48,161 nt of DNA from NCBI GenBank assembly GCA_017544265.1, contig JAFYEM010000003.1:1-48161 (forward strand), given 5' to 3'. A model generated the notes under the pieces. That model had not been told where the DNA came from, searched no databases, and worked only from the letters and a program-made list of their open reading frames with translations. Position numbers and translations under genes: made by a program. Shown here one piece after another: positions 15,198-47,299 of the stretch (its first letter is position 1; each line of letters begins with the position of its first letter). The DNA comes from Bacteroidales bacterium (lineage in GTDB: Bacteria > Bacteroidota > Bacteroidia > Bacteroidales > UBA932).

Positions 15198-16071
15198 ATT
15201 CTGCAAATGAACTTCTGTACCAGCGTATGAAGCTCTCCTGCCACTGCGAGGTGAGAGAGTCCTGCTTTTCCCCGGCGGCCCCGAAGCCGTGTCCGCCGCT
15301 CGGATACAGGGTATAGACGTGGGGTACTCCGCTTGCGGTGAGGGCGGAGTCCAGAAGCATTGAATTGTGATAGTCTACAATCGGGTCGTCCACGCAGTTG
15401 AGAAGGAACACAGGGGGACAGTCCGCCCTGACATGGCGCTCCAGGGAAAGGGAATCCCGCATAGCGGAGGACCATTGCCCCCATCTTCCGAGAAGTCCGC
15501 GGCGGGAACGTCGGTGTACGTAGCGCTCGTCCGAAAGCGTGACCACCGGATAGACCGGAACCACGAAATCAGGCTTCAGGGAATGCCTTGACGGTGCTCC
15601 CGAAAGAGCAGGGAAATCGGTTCCGTATAACTCTCCGGCACTCATTACAAGATGTCCTCCGGCGGAAAAACCCATTGCTCCGACTCGCTTTATGCCGCTT
15701 TTCCCCCTGACAAGGTCTATTGAGCGCTGCAGGTCGCTAATCATATCCGGATGGCGATTTCCCCTAAGTATATAGCGGTATGCGGTAATGAAATCAGGCA
15801 CTCCGGCCGTGCGGTACTCCAGCACGAAGGCTGCAAGCCCTTCGGAGCACAGCCAGCGGGCCACCCGGTGCCCTTCATTCTCCCTGTCCAGCCAGTAATA
15901 GCTCCCTCCCGGGCACACTATGACTGCGTCAAACGGCCCGTCGCCGGAGGGAATATAGGAGCTGAGGGTGACTCCGTATGCCGGTACAGGAGTCCCTTCC
16001 CAGATATGCTCCACATTGGCAGGTTCCGGGAAAAGCAGCGCCAGCAGAAAACGTATAATCCAGAAAATCAT
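15196..16071 (-). CDS. Alpha/beta hydrolase (esterase/lipase-like)
   Basis: 291 residues with an N-terminal hydrophobic segment (FWIIRFLLALLF) that could be a signal or anchor. The hydrolase signature is clear: oxyanion loop CPGGSYYW near 53, nucleophile in GFSAGGH near 135, acid in NCVDDPIVDYHNS near 225 and catalytic His in GGHGFG near 258. The fold resembles acetyl-xylan and BD-FAE esterases. It is the last gene of the polyene operon and its start overlaps the exporter stop (ATGA), so release or trimming of an acyl or sugar ester in that pathway is plausible. This role is inferred from context. Confidence 0.82.
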   Translation of the reverse strand: MIFWIIRFLLALLFPEPANVEHIWEGTPVPAYGVTLSSYIPSGDGPFDAVIVCPGGSYYWLDRENEGHRVARWLCSEGLAAFVLEYRTAGVPDFITAYRYILRGNRHPDMISDLQRSIDLVRGKSGIKRVGAMGFSAGGHLVMSAGELYGTDFPALSGAPSRHSLKPDFVVPVYPVVTLSDERYVHRRSRRGLLGRWGQWSSAMRDSLSLERHVRADCPPVFLLNCVDDPIVDYHNSMLLDSALTASGVPHVYTLYPSGGHGFGAAGEKQDSLTSQWQESFIRWYRSSFAE

Positions 16072-19000
16072 TCTCCCAGGATGTAGCTCAGATTGGATGG
16101 AACGGCTTCGCAGCGGGAGGCTGTCAGGAACTGATGTTCATCGGCGATATATGCAGTCACCTTGACGTCGGGATGCGAAAGCGCAAGCAGCAGGGCATAG
16201 GCCCCGAAGCCGGCGTCGTGAATCTCGGCGGAATCTCCCTCGAAAGCGTCAATTTCGGCAATCTGCTCCCTGCTGAGCCGTGAGGCACGTTCCGCGTCCG
16301 CGCCTTTATAGATATACTGCGCTTTTACGAGCGGGAACAGGTACTCGGCGGTTTCTCTTTCGCGGCGGATGCGTGAATAGACATCGACATAATTGCGGCG
16401 GATATCCTTTGTGAAAGTTTTCAGGTCTTCGGGAATCGCGCTGCAGGGAATCCGCTCTCCGACTTCGAGATACATGTCGGCGCGCCGGAGGTTGTATTCC
16501 AGCTTCGGAAGGGCGTAACCGAAGCCGTGGATATAGCAGGGCAGGATGTCCAGCCCGAGGGCCTTCGCTATTGTGAACGGGCCCCGGTGGAAGCGGCCTA
16601 TGGTGCAGTCGGCGCTGCGGGTGCCTTCCGGGAAGATTGCTACCGAGTAGCCGCGTGCCACCAGCTCGCGCAGCGCTTCCAGATTCTTGTCGAAGCCATT
16701 GGAAACCGGATAGAATTCGGCTTTATGGATGATGTAACCGTAGAAGGGACTGTTCCAGACCCAGTCATTTGTCAGCAGTATAAGTTTCGGAGTGAGCCGC
16801 AGCAGGGCGAGCACATCCAGATGGGACTGGTGGTTGCAGATCAGGACGGCCGGCTTGGAAAAATCTTCCTCCTCGGGAATTTTCTGGTGGAGTTTCACCC
16901 CGGGAATAAGCTTTATGGCGACTCCTGAATACTTCTGAATTATATTGTGAAAACGGTCCTTGTCGCCATTGAAGAGGAAATAGAACAAGGTATAAAGCGA
17001 AAGAGCAGAAAGGTACAGAAGGTAAGACACGCTCATGAGCACCGTCCTCAGAAAACTTCCCAGAGTCACAGGAACCCGCCGGGGCTTTCCTTTTTTCTCA
17101 GTCAGGAAGCGGAAAACCAGGGGTGGAATGTAATAAGCCATCGCCACTACGGTGAACATACCGATGATCGTCAGTTCCGCCAGCGAACGCATTGCAGGGT
17201 GTTTCGCGACAATCAGCGAGCCTATGCCTATGAACATGATGAGCGCTGACAGCATCACGCAGTTCTTGTAGGAAGGCAGTATTTTCTTTCCAGTGGAGCG
17301 CTCGTACATCAGCCCCTCGGTGATGAATATGGTGTAGTCGTCGCCCTGGCCGAAGATGAAGGTCGCAAGGATAATGTTGATTATATTGAACTGAAGACCG
17401 CCCAGATGCATTATTCCGAGAATCCACCACCAGCTGACCGCAAGCGGCAGGAAAGACAGTATGCTCAGCTCCAGCCGGGCGAATGACAGCGTCAGGAAGA
17501 TAAAGACTATCAGGCTGCAAAGCAGGCCTATATGGTCGAAATCTTCTGAGAGAAGGTCAACCAGACGGATGGATACATCAGATTCGTTGAAGCAGAGAGC
17601 TCCTTCTGGAAGATGTTCCCGGATTGCCGCTTTAGCAGTTTCGGCGCTGCCCGAAGGCACATTTACATAATTGACAATCCCGGTACCCTCATACGAACGG
17701 AGCAGCATGGCCGATGCCGCCGGAGCCGTGACGGGCTCGAAATACCCCGCGCTCTCAGGCTCGAACTCACAGTTTAGAAGGTCTATGAAAGGCTGGAACG
17801 CTGAGTCGGAGAACCCCTCCCGCCTTGCCGCGGCGAGAAGTTCCGTCTGCAGCGCGGGATGTTCTTCCCGGAAGCGTGCCCACCTCCGGGAGCGTTCCTG
17901 CTGGGTGGAGAGCGAAGGCAGGAAGGCGGTTATGGAACTGCCGCTGCAGCCTTCCGGCAGTGTCGCGGCAAGTTTCTCTGCGAGAGCAATCGCCGCATCT
18001 TCAGACTCGTCTTCTGCGACTACGAATATGGTTTCAGTCCCTTCCCGGGAGCCGCCGAGGCCGGCAAGAGTCTCAAATGCATTGTCCTGTTCCCTGGTGA
18101 TGTAGTTGATATGATGCATATCCGCGTCGAAGGAGACTTTGCGGCTCTGAATTCCAAGGAATATGGTGACTGCTGCAAAGAGCAGGAATCCCAGTTTCCT
18201 CCAAAGCGGCGGGAGATTTATGTGCCGGTCGAAATCCAGGCGCAGGGTATTTCTCGGGGAAGCCGTTTCCGGAATGAATACAGGGAGGAAGAACAGCACG
18301 AACAGTATGGTTCCAACAAGCATCATTGCGGCGATGAAGCCGAAATCCTTCAGTGCTCCAGAGCGCAGAAGCATCATCGAAAGGAAGGCTCCCACCGTGG
18401 TGATGTTCCCAACAAGCAGGGGATTGATCTGTTCAGCAAGGGTTTCTCTGCGGTCTTTCCGGTATTTCAGATGGTCCACATAGTGCAGCGGATAATTCAC
18501 GGCGATGCCGATTATCATCGACCCTATGCCGAGGATTATTATGGAAATTTCCGTCTTGAAAAGCGCAATCAGTCCGAGTGCGAAAACAGCCCCTACGCCT
18601 ATTGAAATTGCTATCCAGAGTACGTCGGCGCCCCGTTTGAAGGAAAACCACAGCACCAGTGAAATCAGCAGCAGCGCTATTCCGATCGCAAGGAAACTGT
18701 CTTTCTTTATCTGCTGTGAGTTCTGCACGCTGATAAGCGGAACGCCTGTGGAGTAGATGTGCACTGACGGATTTGCGGCGGCGGTTTCGGCGGAGATGTC
18801 GGCGACAGCCTTCGCCAGGGGTGCGTTCAGCGCAGATTCGCTGGCGTCGTACGGCGAATCGAAGAGTATCACGCCGGTGCGTCCGTCCGCGGTGAAGATG
18901 TGCCCGTCGATTATCCGGCTTCCCGCAGTCGGATTCAGTTCCCGGAGTCTTTCAAGCACCTGAGGGAAGAGGCCCAGGGGGTCTCCGCGCAGGTATTTTG

Positions 19001-19667
19001 TCTGCATCGCAGTGACGGCGGTGTACATTTCCGCCTTGTCTTCGACAATCTTTCTGTCTATGTAGCCGGGCAGCGCGAGAAGCGAATCCATGCGGGCGTA
19101 GTCGCTTTCCGTAAGGAAGCGCGGGTAGTTCGCGCTGACGAACGCGAAGACTTCCGCCGCGTCAGCCATGGCACCGGAGGCACTTCGGGGGGCATCGACC
19201 CCCTGAAAAGCCCCACGAAGTGCCTCCGGTGCCGCAGAGCCTGCCGCAGAGGCATCCGTCGAACCTTTATAGGGTGTCGATGGTTCGCCAGACGCCTCTG
19301 CAGCATTGCCGGCGGAAGACAGGGGCCGGGGGGCATCGACCCCCTGAAAAGCCCCACGGTCCCTGTCTTCCGACACAACCGCAGAGGTATCCCATCGCCC
19401 GGTGAAGTCATCCATGGCGGCGATGGCAGCGTCGTTGTCTTCGCTTTCGAAGAACACCGCCACCTTCCGCTCGGACCCCATACGCTTATAGACACTCTCG
19501 TAGCGCGCAGTCTGACTGTCCATCGGCAGGAAGGCCGAAATGTCTTCACTGTAACGGAGCCTCAGCGCGGAAATGGCGCAGAGTGCAGTCACTGCGGCGA
19601 GAAGCATCCAGGCAAAGGCTTTGTGGCCGCGGAGATAATCGTGGATATGAAGAATCCAGCGCTTCAT
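16068..19667 (-). CDS. MMPL-family lipid exporter fused to a PlsC-type acyltransferase
   Basis: 1199 residues. Residue 1 was set at the ATG at 19667, which overlaps the glycosyltransferase stop. It has two RND/MMPL halves, each with one helix, a large periplasmic loop and a helix bundle (helices from about 325 and 690; GQGDDYTIFI in the second half). Then comes a 1-acyl-glycerophosphate acyltransferase domain (about 895-1110) with NHQSHLDVL (HX4D) and FPEGTRSADC. The last 75 residues are unassigned. MMPL exporters are standard in aryl-polyene and flexirubin clusters and are thought to move the finished lipid. The first periplasmic loop is enlarged by about 70 residues (99-166) encoded by three hairpin elements, giving RGAFQGVDAPR twice. 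The frame stays open across them. Confidence 0.87.
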   Translation of the reverse strand: MKRWILHIHDYLRGHKAFAWMLLAAVTALCAISALRLRYSEDISAFLPMDSQTARYESVYKRMGSERKVAVFFESEDNDAAIAAMDDFTGRWDTSAVVSEDRDRGAFQGVDAPRPLSSAGNAAEASGEPSTPYKGSTDASAAGSAAPEALRGAFQGVDAPRSASGAMADAAEVFAFVSANYPRFLTESDYARMDSLLALPGYIDRKIVEDKAEMYTAVTAMQTKYLRGDPLGLFPQVLERLRELNPTAGSRIIDGHIFTADGRTGVILFDSPYDASESALNAPLAKAVADISAETAAANPSVHIYSTGVPLISVQNSQQIKKDSFLAIGIALLLISLVLWFSFKRGADVLWIAISIGVGAVFALGLIALFKTEISIIILGIGSMIIGIAVNYPLHYVDHLKYRKDRRETLAEQINPLLVGNITTVGAFLSMMLLRSGALKDFGFIAAMMLVGTILFVLFFLPVFIPETASPRNTLRLDFDRHINLPPLWRKLGFLLFAAVTIFLGIQSRKVSFDADMHHINYITREQDNAFETLAGLGGSREGTETIFVVAEDESEDAAIALAEKLAATLPEGCSGSSITAFLPSLSTQQERSRRWARFREEHPALQTELLAAARREGFSDSAFQPFIDLLNCEFEPESAGYFEPVTAPAASAMLLRSYEGTGIVNYVNVPSGSAETAKAAIREHLPEGALCFNESDVSIRLVDLLSEDFDHIGLLCSLIVFIFLTLSFARLELSILSFLPLAVSWWWILGIMHLGGLQFNIINIILATFIFGQGDDYTIFITEGLMYERSTGKKILPSYKNCVMLSALIMFIGIGSLIVAKHPAMRSLAELTIIGMFTVVAMAYYIPPLVFRFLTEKKGKPRRVPVTLGSFLRTVLMSVSYLLYLSALSLYTLFYFLFNGDKDRFHNIIQKYSGVAIKLIPGVKLHQKIPEEEDFSKPAVLICNHQSHLDVLALLRLTPKLILLTNDWVWNSPFYGYIIHKAEFYPVSNGFDKNLEALRELVARGYSVAIFPEGTRSADCTIGRFHRGPFTIAKALGLDILPCYIHGFGYALPKLEYNLRRADMYLEVGERIPCSAIPEDLKTFTKDIRRNYVDVYSRIRRERETAEYLFPLVKAQYIYKGADAERASRLSREQIAEIDAFEGDSAEIHDAGFGAYALLLALSHPDVKVTAYIADEHQFLTASRCEAVPSNLSYILGE
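19170..19233 (-). repeat. Constant-loop hairpin element, copy A
   Basis: 64 bp. The arms at 19170-19193 and 19210-19233 pair at 23 of 24 positions. The 16-nt loop (19194-19209) reads TTTTCAGGGGGTCGAT on the minus strand. It lies inside the exporter gene and is read there as EALRGAFQGVDAPRSAS. The arm sequence is unrelated to those of the other copies, while the loop is identical to copy B. Confidence 0.85.
19242..19305 (+). repeat. Constant-loop hairpin element, copy C (reverse orientation)
   Basis: 64 bp between copies A and B. The arms at 19242-19265 and 19282-19305 pair at 20 of 24 positions. The loop at 19266-19281 reads TTTATAGGGTGTCGAT on the plus strand, 13 of 16 identical to copy A in the opposite orientation. 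The bases next to the loop differ from copy A on both sides in a compensating way (AACC/GGTT here, GGGC/GCCC there). The exporter gene reads it as EASGEPSTPYKGSTDA. Confidence 0.75.
19313..19372 (-). repeat. Constant-loop hairpin element, copy B
   Basis: 60 bp. The arms at 19313-19334 and 19351-19372 pair at 20 of 22 positions. The loop at 19335-19350 is TTTTCAGGGGGTCGAT on the minus strand. The exporter gene reads it as SEDRDRGAFQGVDAPRPLSS. The outer arm sequence (CGGAAGACAGGG) has no similarity to copy A. Confidence 0.85.
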
Positions 19668-20386
19668 TTGAAAAGGCGTTGAATCAGCATGCGGGGATAA
19701 CCGTACACAAAGGCGAGAATCAGCAGGCACACGTTCATGATGCTGATTCTGGCGAAATCGACGGTCGGGTCGAAAGAAGAAACCCGGTGCTCGGGATAGA
19801 AGACCCTGACGGCTACCGGAATTGTTTTAAGACCGCGCCAGGCGGAGAATACCAGCAGCGCCAGTTCGGCCTCGAAGCGGGCGGTGACAATACGGGGAAT
19901 TAGTTTCAGCGGGTAAATGCGGAAGCCGGTCTGGGTGTCTGGAATGCGTCTCCAGGTGTCCACGGTGAACCAGAAATTGGAGAACTTGTTGGCAAAAGTA
20001 TTGCCTCCGGGCATGTTCTCAGCGTTGAGGTCGCGGGAACCAATTATCAGTGCATCCGGATTCCCGCTGCTCTTTTCCAGCAGCAGTGGAATATCTTCAG
20101 GAAAATGCTGCCCGTCGGCATCCAGGGTGACGGCGTGTGTGAATCCCAGTTCCAGAGCTTTTGCAAAGCCTCTTTTAAGCGCGCAGCCCTTGCCTTCATT
20201 TTTCGGGGCGGTCACCACGGTTACAGGGAGGGATGCGAGGATTTCAGCAGTACCGTCGGTGCAGCCGTCATTCACCACGATCACATCCTTGATCTGGGCG
20301 AGAGTCCTGCGGACCACGTCCTCCACCGTCCCGGCATTGTTGTGTGTCGGAATAACAGCAACTGTCCTGACGGGAGAGTCACTCAT
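19664..20386 (-). CDS. Family 2 glycosyltransferase (polyprenyl-phosphate mannosyltransferase-like)
   Basis: 240 residues of GT-A fold: VAVIPTHNNAGTVEDVV at the start, VVNDGCTDGTAE near 38, LDADGQHFPED near 90 as the nucleotide-sugar/metal motif, and GSRDLN. A hydrophobic C-terminal segment (IMNVCLLILAFVYG) suggests membrane association. The GFRIYPL motif is typical of the dolichyl-phosphate mannosyltransferase-like group. It overlaps the upstream dehydratase by 8 bases and the exporter by 4, so it is part of the polyene operon, where it may glycosylate the lipid head. Confidence 0.9.
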   Translation of the reverse strand: MSDSPVRTVAVIPTHNNAGTVEDVVRRTLAQIKDVIVVNDGCTDGTAEILASLPVTVVTAPKNEGKGCALKRGFAKALELGFTHAVTLDADGQHFPEDIPLLLEKSSGNPDALIIGSRDLNAENMPGGNTFANKFSNFWFTVDTWRRIPDTQTGFRIYPLKLIPRIVTARFEAELALLVFSAWRGLKTIPVAVRVFYPEHRVSSFDPTVDFARISIMNVCLLILAFVYGYPRMLIQRLFK

Positions 20387-40839: not shown

Positions 40840-42082
40840 TTCTGTATATCTGATATCGTCGCTTGTCGCGGGAGACTTCTACAAGGTCCCCGTGACGGCG
40901 GCTTTCCTGTTTGCTTCTGTCTATGCTCTCGCGATAACCCGCGGGGGCCGTCTGGCCGAACGGATAGACATTTTTTCACGCGGCGCCGGGGACAAGAATG
41001 TCCTCGTGATGATTTGGATTTTCGTCTTTGCAGGGGCTTTTGCGGCCACGGCCAAAGATATCGGCGCCATAGACGCAACCGTCAACCTGACCCTGAGCCT
41101 GCTTCCGGGGCGTTTCCTCTATGCCGGGCTCTTCATCGCGGCCTGTTTTATTTCCTTTGCAATCGGTACCAGCGTAGGCACCATCGTCGCCCTTGTCCCC
41201 ATTGCTTCGGCCATCGCCGGCGAGACCGGCCTTGGGGTTGCTGCAGTCACCGCGATAATCACCGGCGGGGCCTTCTTCGGCGACAACCTGTCCTTTATCT
41301 CGGACACGACCGTGGCCTCGACAAAGACCCAGGGCTGCTCAATGAAGGATAAGTTCAAGGCCAATGCCATAATTGCCGGCATCGCCGCAGTGATAGTCCT
41401 GCTGCTGTACCTGTATCTTGGCCGGGGCGTCCAGTACACCCATCCGGTCGGAAGCGTCCAGCCGGTCAAACTGCTGCCGTATGTGCTGGTAATCGGCCTT
41501 GCGCTTGCCGGAATCAATGTGATTGCGACTCTCGCCGCCGGAATCCTCGCCAACGGAATCCTCGGCTTTGCCTATGGTATTTTCGACTGGACCGGCTGGT
41601 TCGTGTCTGCCGGGAACGGCATCAGCGGCATGGGAGAACTCATAATCGTCACCCTTCTCGCCGGAGGGATGCTCGAAATCATCCGCCACAACGGCGGTAT
41701 GGACTATATTGTCGGGCAGATGACGCGGCGCCTGAGCGGCCGCCGTGGAGCGGAACTGTCCATTGCCGCCATGGTGTGCCTGGTGAATTTCTGCACAGCG
41801 AACAATACCATAGCCATTCTGACCGCCGGGCCCATAGCGAAGGATGTCTCCGGCCGCTTCGGCATCAGTCCGAGGCGCACTGCAAGCCTTCTGGACACAT
41901 TCTCCTGCTTTGTCCAGGGCATCATTCCCTACGGTGCCCAGATGCTGATGGCTTCCGGCCTCGCAGCCGTAGCGTCCACGGAAATCATCGCCCACCTGTA
42001 CTATCCTTTCGTACTGGGCGGGGTGGCTCTTCTGGCTATCCTGTTTCCGCTTAAATTCCGTAAACGCCTGTCTCTTCGCTGA
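40799..42082 (+). CDS. NhaC-like Na+/H+ antiporter
   Basis: 427 residues if it starts at 40799; an in-frame ATG at 40766 overlapping pgk would add 11. Eleven or so transmembrane segments, with GTSVGTIVALVPIASAI, TGGAFFGDNLSFISDTTVAST (the NhaC hallmark) and NFCTANNTIAILTAGPIAKD. It exchanges cytoplasmic Na+ for H+ at the inner membrane, or a similar exchange of organic ions. Its 3' end overlaps the convergent dus gene by 32 bases. Confidence 0.88.
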   Translation: MSGPLALSPLLIFLSVYLISSLVAGDFYKVPVTAAFLFASVYALAITRGGRLAERIDIFSRGAGDKNVLVMIWIFVFAGAFAATAKDIGAIDATVNLTLSLLPGRFLYAGLFIAACFISFAIGTSVGTIVALVPIASAIAGETGLGVAAVTAIITGGAFFGDNLSFISDTTVASTKTQGCSMKDKFKANAIIAGIAAVIVLLLYLYLGRGVQYTHPVGSVQPVKLLPYVLVIGLALAGINVIATLAAGILANGILGFAYGIFDWTGWFVSAGNGISGMGELIIVTLLAGGMLEIIRHNGGMDYIVGQMTRRLSGRRGAELSIAAMVCLVNFCTANNTIAILTAGPIAKDVSGRFGISPRRTASLLDTFSCFVQGIIPYGAQMLMASGLAAVASTEIIAHLYYPFVLGGVALLAILFPLKFRKRLSLR

Positions 42083-45873: not shown

Positions 45874-46472
45874 CCCCTCAGGAAGCATTCTCGAAGGCCC
45901 TTGAGACACTTCGTGCCGGGGGAGTGATACTCTATCCGACTGACACGGTATGGGGGCTGGGCTGCGACGCGACCAATCCTGACGCCGTCCGCCGTATCTT
46001 CGGTATCAAGCGCCGCGACGACTCCAAGTCGCTGGTGCTGCTGGCCGCCGACCTGGACATGGTCGCCCGCTATGTCAAGGCTGTGCCGCCTATGGCCATA
46101 GACCTTGTCGAGGTCAATGACGCCCCTATGACCATTGTCTATCCGGACGCCATCGCCCAGACCGATCCGGATGCTTCGGACCGGTATCATCTTGCCGCCA
46201 ATGTGGTGGCTTCTGACGGTTCCGTGGGCATACGCATTCCACTTATGCAGTTCTGCCGCGATCTCGCATATAAGCTCGGACGGCCGCTGGTATCGACATC
46301 GGCCAATATTTCGGGCGAGCCTTCGCCGCGTAAACTGACAGATATACCTTCTGAGATTCAGGAGGCTGTGGATTTTGTGGTTCCGCCGTCCCTTGACAGG
46401 GAATCCACGGGGAAGGCCTCACAGATTATCCGCGTCGGAATGGACGGGGAAGTGGAAATAATCCGAATGTAA
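45870..46472 (+). CDS. tsaC: L-threonylcarbamoyladenylate synthase (TsaC/Sua5/YrdC)
   Basis: 200 residues. Makes threonylcarbamoyl-AMP, the first step of t6A in tRNAs that read ANN codons. GVILYPTDTVWGLGCDATN, KRRDDSKSLVLLAAD and VGIRIPLMQFCRDL...LVSTSANISGEP are the YrdC signatures. There is no Sua5 C-terminal domain. Its stop overlaps the rsmE start. Confidence 0.93.
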   Translation: MTPQEAFSKALETLRAGGVILYPTDTVWGLGCDATNPDAVRRIFGIKRRDDSKSLVLLAADLDMVARYVKAVPPMAIDLVEVNDAPMTIVYPDAIAQTDPDASDRYHLAANVVASDGSVGIRIPLMQFCRDLAYKLGRPLVSTSANISGEPSPRKLTDIPSEIQEAVDFVVPPSLDRESTGKASQIIRVGMDGEVEIIRM

Positions 46473-47299
46473 TGGAACTGTTCTATTCGTCTGATATTGA
46501 GGGAGATATTGTCTGTCTTGGGAGCGAAGAATCTTCGCATTGCACTCGTGTGCTCCGGCATCGTCCCGGGGATGAGGTCTATATCATAGACGGCCGCGGG
46601 ACACTTTTGCGCTGCCGTCTCGAGAGTGCTTCTTCCGCGCGGATTATCGAGCGGACTCCGTCATGGAATGCACATCCTTACGATCTTACCATTGCCTGCT
46701 GTCCCACTAAAAATAATGATCGCTACGAGTGGTTCGTGGAAAAGGCTGTGGAGATAGGTGTGGACCGGATAGTCCCTGTTATAGGCGAACACTCTGAAAG
46801 GAAGGTCTATAAGACTGACCGTGCCCGCCGTATCGCAGTATCGGCCGCGAAGCAGTCCCTTAAGGCCGCCGTGCCGCTTATTGACGAAGCGGTTTCTGTG
46901 CTGGAGTTCATTGAATCTTCCGCTATGCCGGCTGCTTTTAAGAGTGTCGATGCCGTCGGAACCCTGCCAGTTGCCTCCGCTCCTGCGTCGTCGCTGACGC
47001 CCCGGGGGGCTGTTCAGGGGGTCGATGCCCCCCGGAACGTCAGCGACGCCTACGCTCTGAAACTTATTGCATGCTGCTTCGAGGGGGAAGTGCCCCGCAC
47101 TTCGGTTGTCGATGCGCTTCGCGCCTATGACGGATGGGAGGTGGTGGTCCTGATAGGCCCTGAAGGGGATTTTTCGCCTGCTGAGGTCTCAGCTGCCGTG
47201 GCGGCTGGATTCGTCCCGATTCACCTGGGTCCTTCGCGGCTTCGTACGGAAACAGCTGCAATCACCGCAGCAGAAGCGGTTTACCTCCACTATTTGTAA
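46472..47299 (+). CDS. rsmE: 16S rRNA m3U1498 methyltransferase RsmE, with an internal insertion
   Basis: Methylates U1498 of 16S rRNA. 275 residues against about 235-245 usual. The PUA-like N-terminus (HCTRVLRHRPGDEVYIIDGRG), KNNDRYEWFVEKAVEIGVDRIVPV, KQSLKAAVPLI, VVLIGPEGDFSPAEV and LGPSRLRTETA are all present, so the fold and SAM knot are intact. About 35-40 residues between EFIESS and KLIACCFEG (about 151-197) come from two hairpin elements and give AAFKSVDAVG and PRGAVQGVDAPRN. This point is a loop region of the family, so activity may be retained. Confidence 0.92.
   Translation: MELFYSSDIEGDIVCLGSEESSHCTRVLRHRPGDEVYIIDGRGTLLRCRLESASSARIIERTPSWNAHPYDLTIACCPTKNNDRYEWFVEKAVEIGVDRIVPVIGEHSERKVYKTDRARRIAVSAAKQSLKAAVPLIDEAVSVLEFIESSAMPAAFKSVDAVGTLPVASAPASSLTPRGAVQGVDAPRNVSDAYALKLIACCFEGEVPRTSVVDALRAYDGWEVVVLIGPEGDFSPAEVSAAVAAGFVPIHLGPSRLRTETAAITAAEAVYLHYL
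46928..46959 (+). repeat. Decayed constant-loop hairpin element in rsmE (copy E)
   Basis: The 16 bases TTTTAAGAGTGTCGAT (46936-46951) match 13 of 16 positions of the loop in copies A and B. Flanking bases pair at about 6 of 8 positions (CCGGCTGC with GCCGTCGG, one more as G-T). It is read in frame as AAFKSVDAVG, the same pattern as GAFQGVDAPR. It lies 29 bases before copy D. It is probably an old copy, though chance similarity cannot be excluded. Confidence 0.5.
46989..47048 (+). repeat. Constant-loop hairpin element, copy D
   Basis: 60 bp inside rsmE. The arms at 46989-47010 and 47027-47048 pair at 20 of 22 positions. The loop (47011-47026) is TGTTCAGGGGGTCGAT, 15 of 16 identical to copies A and B, which lie 27 kb away on the other strand. 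The outer arm (CGTCGCTGACG) is unrelated to theirs. It is read in frame as LTPRGAVQGVDAPRNVSD. Confidence 0.85.

Follow-up and report, generated by a model that had tools for sequence, protein, structure and literature searches.

Rickettsia palindromic elements (RPEs) are dispersed palindromes that reside in frame within genes and that the host proteins tolerate; these repeats are reported to lose their identity over time (PMC6649704). REP stems mostly measure 6-9 bp and bear a terminal tag such as GTAG, and CGTC REPs, which have no dedicated transposase, are reported from Bacteroidetes (PMC3733652). In the mitochondrial coding palindromes of Nematomorpha, both arms encode conserved protein sequence (PMC6649704).

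The hairpin family described here has features of all three. It resembles RPEs, by description, in consisting of dispersed palindromes in frame in genes. However, it occurs in Bacteroidales, its elements measure ~64-66 bp, and the loop and adjoining bases are constant while the mid-stem varies in pairs. With REPs, BIMEs and REPINs it shares short multi-copy palindromes, composites of alternating orientation, some presence in genes and a RAYT-like gene in the same genome; it differs in its 24-25 bp stem and in having no conserved base run outside that stem. No REP-type tetranucleotide tag was found beside the stem (information is low at positions 26-30 from the loop in both the source genome and its congeners), and in the source genome no copy of the family borders the RAYT-like gene. 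The Nematomorpha palindromes are likewise near-perfect coding hairpins whose arms change together (PMC6649704), whereas here the hairpin is a linker insert with a common loop. The family is RPE-like in habit and REP-like in its composites, and by the tests made it is a member of neither. A literature search, beyond whose reach lay most subscription papers, turned up no account of elements of this kind from Bacteroidales.

The window, the whole 48,161-nucleotide stretch of DNA that was analysed, is contig C52 of a 1.87-Mb genome in 65 contigs. Three hairpins lie within a gene for an MMPL-type exporter fused to an acyltransferase, at 16068-19667 on the reverse strand (the ORF spans 16068-19730; the start at 19667 comes from a home-made gene caller). 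Elements 1 (19170-19233) and 3 (19311-19374) are on the reverse strand, in sense to the host gene, and element 2 (19242-19305) is on the forward strand, antisense; all are in frame. Pairing amounts to 23/24 positions for 19170-19233, 20/24 for 19242-19305 and 20/22 for 19313-19372, and the loops are TTTTCAGGGGGTCGAT twice and TTTATAGGGTGTCGAT once. Coordinates, loops, pairing and the reversal of the middle copy are as given in a preliminary description made from the sequence. The 221-nt stretch with the three hairpins has a folding z of -9.43 against shuffles, which none of 200 shuffles reaches. That description had also claimed an open reading frame and about 70 added residues. The frame is indeed open across all three elements, which together account for 69 residues; compared with orthologues, the extra residues number 59 (103-161 of the host protein, 177 nt), and these are absent from all 11 MMPL orthologues (42-57% identity). 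Across 4227 Rfam families, matches to the window were limited to two tRNAs and one rRNA.

In the source genome the loop is found at 26 places with at most two mismatches, against 0 for a backwards control, and chance origin is thereby ruled out. Both the loop enrichment and the self-complementary flanks at other loop copies, proposed earlier as checks, were thus found. A covariance model built from 22 copies (R1) gives 72 matches at E<=1, with both strands counted; at E<=0.001 there are 59, and the family numbers ~60 copies in this genome. We list 65 places, including a 26-nt fragment: 31 within called genes, 2 across a gene end and 32 intergenic, by the gene calls of a home-made codon-usage script. 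In-gene copies in either orientation rule out terminators. An assembly artefact is ruled out by copies on many contigs and relatives in at least 18 other genomes. Copies other than 64 nt in length (10/65 in the source genome, 11/49 in congeners) are left out of the column, phase and wobble counts below.

At 75% arm identity, 55 copies of the source genome fall into clusters of 22, 16 and 3, with 14 singletons; stem sequence is thus conserved within subfamilies, and across the genus it is not conserved at mid-stem. Element 3 belongs to the 22-member cluster, and its arms at 9-24 from the loop are 94% identical to those of a copy in a manA-like gene. Element 1 joins no subfamily at this threshold (subfamily D is nearest, at 66%), and element 2 is also nearest to subfamily D (72%). 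The window holds a fourth copy, of subfamily A, at 46987-47050 (forward strand), in frame in a gene for an RsmE-family 16S rRNA methyltransferase (46472-47299, forward strand). Directly before it, at 46936-46953 on the forward strand, is a loop-like match with 3 mismatches, found by pattern only and missed by R1, which is probably a decayed element.

Copies also form composite arrays: B+A in intergenic tandem, C+A- in the AtpB and manA-like genes, and D+B-A- in LptB and DnaX. The last two genes are neighbours (L063:2148-5141), each with its array and with similar flanking coding sequence, giving the impression that one gene received a segment copied from the other. Two hybrids, A-left/B-right and B-left/A-right (L062:2253-2316 and L079:2247-2310), have 13 and 12 of 24 positions paired, the two lowest values among the 55 copies, and probably arose by recombination at the loops.

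R1 had no match in 40 relatives, so a broader model, R2, was required. Of 400 genomes from the genus, at least 19 match it at E<=0.001, an undercount given that 13 candidates were scored per genome. Among 119 genomes drawn from the order it has one match, in the source genome itself. The pattern GGCTKWWYAGGGKGTCKATGCC was found in 0 stretches of viral contigs and in 9 of genome contigs, of which 8 score like chance. The remaining one, in MAG RGIG4404 (Bacteroidales, roe deer omasum), is a family member on the same contig as G310:C22, in the same genus. A looser pattern with 3 mismatches hits 232/400 congeners and is uninformative. Some copies are old: the same site is occupied across genomes (G381, G351 and G085 at one site, G155 and G156 at another). 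Recent orthologue pairs (L145/L146, L152/L153) differ by unpaired single changes, which means that pairing is not quickly restored.

Each element has a stem of 24-25 bp that closes a conserved 16-nt loop; the ~8 bp next to the loop are conserved as well, and the middle of the stem varies freely but pairwise. Covariation is 0.560 versus 0.157 for shuffled partners with 22 sequences and 0.775 versus 0.190 with 31 (3.6 to 4 times the shuffled value), and 0/500 shuffles reach it in either set. Both-sided changes are found at all 24 stem positions but one or two, and shifting the partner by 1-3 columns lowers pairing from 81-86% to 36-51%. In 33 congener copies, from which orthologous repeats had been removed, pairing at positions 12-15 from the loop reaches 97%, compared with 31% for shuffled partners and a maximum of 47% in 1000 shuffles; mid-stem information in congeners is 0.06-0.32 bits per column. 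In 38 congener copies, the bases next to the loop carry much information; it drops to near zero at 12, 13 and 15 and is again moderate over 16-24, where a GG/CC pair occupies 23-24. Pairing stops at ~25 in the source genome. In congeners it is 76, 61, 58, 50 and 37% at positions 25-29, and some of their stems fray outward into host sequence.

Mismatches on the loop strand are more often A.C than G.T (37 versus 13 in congeners, p 0.0009; 107 versus 20 in the source genome), and the excess is equal in kind for sense, antisense and intergenic copies. This hints that the strand that folds is the complement of the loop strand, and not the host mRNA; the excess is concentrated in few columns, outside which the counts are 17 versus 9 (p 0.17) and 29 versus 17 (p 0.10).

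As in RPEs, the palindromes sit in frame in coding genes, with the frame open in 23 copies of the source genome and 29 of congeners. One codon phase is used in 50 of these 52, against 29.0 expected over stop-free phases (P 4e-12): 23/23 in the source genome, where the counts cover 23 of 31 in-gene copies, and 27/29 in congeners, the exceptions being the antisense L176 and L186. Counts throughout are not independent, given paralogous genes, three copies in one gene, and orthologues. In the used phase, sense copies encode GVDA/GDYA or KKADA, and antisense copies STPYK or ASA. Hosts above the NCBIfam cut-off are AtpG, AtpB, CysS, LptB, DnaX, MiaA, UvrA and the RsmE family in the source genome, and LpxK and prephenate dehydrogenase in congeners; AtpB, AtpG, CysS, DnaX, MiaA and UvrA are core genes. 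Below the cut-off are the manA-like gene and a biotin carrier protein in the former, and NrnA-like DHH, FMT and IleRS in the latter (FMT and IleRS as fragments); further host names, e.g., MurE and aspartokinase, are by-eye readings.

On balance, we favor the interpretation that these sequences are a non-autonomous, RPE-like mobile hairpin of ~64-66 bp whose loop and shape are maintained. New copies would arise from old ones via a single-stranded hairpin, of DNA or RNA, recognised by its loop and shape; such recognition would leave the stem letters free provided that they pair. In-gene insertions would survive when the peptide they bring to a linker is hydrophilic, frame-neutral and free of stops. 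We saw no autonomous relative, transposition event or target duplication, and found no close empty site. The pairing of congener copies past 25 bp is not predicted by a fixed element. The sole Y1-type gene found in the source genome, considered as a candidate mover, is a RAYT-like (HUH transposase) ORF of 294 aa at C4:103499-104380, below the Pfam cut-off. No family copy lies at this gene, the only R1 matches on C4 being at 41473, 99197 and 165628, and none of the inverted repeats by three RAYT-like genes is a family member, as judged by eye. RAYT homologues occur in 19/19 genomes with the element but also in 337/400 congeners overall, which is not telling; no observation links the gene to the elements.

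It is also conceivable, though rather unlikely, that template switching in replication (quasi-palindrome correction of one arm onto the other) maintains the complementarity of the arms and that the hairpin itself is not under selection, the loop being conserved for some other reason and the stems creeping into the flanks. Such a process would account for a mid-stem that is near-perfect without sequence conservation and for the tail of pairing in relatives to ~28 bp and more, including single stems of 31 bp with 3 mismatches (L164, L148). Concerted arm evolution is also what has been argued for the Nematomorpha palindromes (PMC6649704). However, copies in the source genome have conserved mismatches at fixed positions (6 and 9-11 from the loop), which ought to have been corrected, as ought the A/B hybrids, which are still at about half of their pairs. 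The bias toward A.C over G.T would likewise be unexpected.

The preliminary description had proposed the insertion of a short core, with every new stem copied backwards from neighbouring host DNA, given that the arms of its three copies seemed unrelated. They are unrelated among these three, because the window copies are drawn from different stem lineages. Genome-wide, the claim fails: 42/55 copies have arms (11-24 from the loop) at least 75% identical to those of a copy elsewhere, and 0/55 have such flanks. For congeners, 13/38 copies have a non-orthologous neighbour at this level in the arms and 0/38 in the flanks, and mean pairwise identity is 0.385 in arms versus 0.263 in flanks. Since arms are common to different sites and flanks are not, the arms descend from common stems and diverge pairwise, and no new arms are made at each site.

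Insert lengths also bear on this proposal, as a loop plus one copied arm would add ~40 nt, and the inserts are mostly ~57-66 nt. The distance between anchors is 46 residues in FMT of G093 versus 27 in 5/13 other rows (+57 nt; one locus is counted double in this comparison, L243 = L263), 53 in TyrA of G233 versus 32 in the single parsed orthologue (+63 nt; eight others unparsed), and 49 in IleRS of G330 versus 27-29 in 15/20 others (+60-66 nt). LpxK of G330 has 47 versus 27-31 in 9/15 others (+48-60 nt; the other six have 41-48), and MiaA of G148 and G233 has 50 and 54 versus 30-36 in 13/28 others (42-72 nt). The inserts in FMT, TyrA, IleRS and MMPL fit a whole element; those in LpxK and MiaA are compatible with a partly native arm, as backward copying would have it. 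Also in its favor are mid-stems unrelated among many congener copies, pairing above chance to 28 bp and beyond in relatives, similar arms around different cores in FMT of G093 and G044, and two MiaA loci (L211, L223) with what looks like a single arm of the hairpin found in L210 and L222 (family K2, below). However, L211 and L223 can be read from their sequence as deletions between short direct repeats (CCCTC; CCTCCG), the stems of the source genome end at 24-25 bp, and the hybrids stay unpaired. We therefore find backward copying improbable overall and unlikely for the bulk of the stem, although stem ends in relatives are less clear-cut. What stands of the earlier interpretation is a dispersed family with a conserved loop and compensating stems, in frame.

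A cellular role as a structured RNA or mRNA element, in processing, bypass or translation control, would fit the strong covariation and the fact that some orthologous sites have long been occupied (e.g., L144/L145/L146 and L161/L162/L163), but it is very doubtful given that copies occupy genes in either orientation (13 sense and 10 antisense of those scored in the source genome), about half are intergenic, presence in the genus is patchy, Rfam gave no match for the elements, and the used phase is stop-free, which would be needless for a spliced or bypassed insert.

The linkers that hold hairpins of this family also hold other cores. Across 31 parsed loci the MiaA linker measures from 30 to 94 residues, anchor to anchor, and in 7/31 it contains a hairpin above all codon-shuffled controls, by a threshold that misses a known element, L180. 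A core of ~90 nt, K2, is found at this linker in four genomes, in opposite orientations and with different arms. The K2 loci L210, L213, L221 and L222 have near-perfect arms, with orientation opposed in two species pairs; L211 and L223 have a single arm-like stretch only. Another core, K3 (TCGCTTCGCGACCCTGT.CGGGCAAATG), occupies FMT in G044 and G005; G019 has it in its NrnA-like and TyrA loci and, interrupted, in IleRS. In these loci of three congeners (L225, L232, L274, L287 and L226) K3 is in frame, and the linkers are ones where other species carry the window's family. More short repeats lie in frame at the same linkers (L229, L243, L254, L285 and L286: CHSERSEESL, VIPGSDRESP and GDTLGPLGLGMT), and in the NrnA-like gene of G412 (L168:1501-1563) a long EKET tandem repeat is beside a family hairpin at one linker. 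We tentatively raise the possibility that in this genus a system reading loop and shape spreads hairpins with free stem letters, that several unrelated cores share linkers (MiaA, FMT, NrnA-like DHH, IleRS), and that core enzymes serve as docking sites at which in-frame hairpins are replaced, flipped and re-armed between species.

The family is a bacterial mobile repeat that visibly conserves its structure but not its stem sequence, and selection on the hairpin versus copying from arm to arm thereby becomes testable. If the interpretation favored here holds, selfish DNA would repeatedly add peptides to core enzymes at the same linkers, which may be a route for the growth of protein loops.
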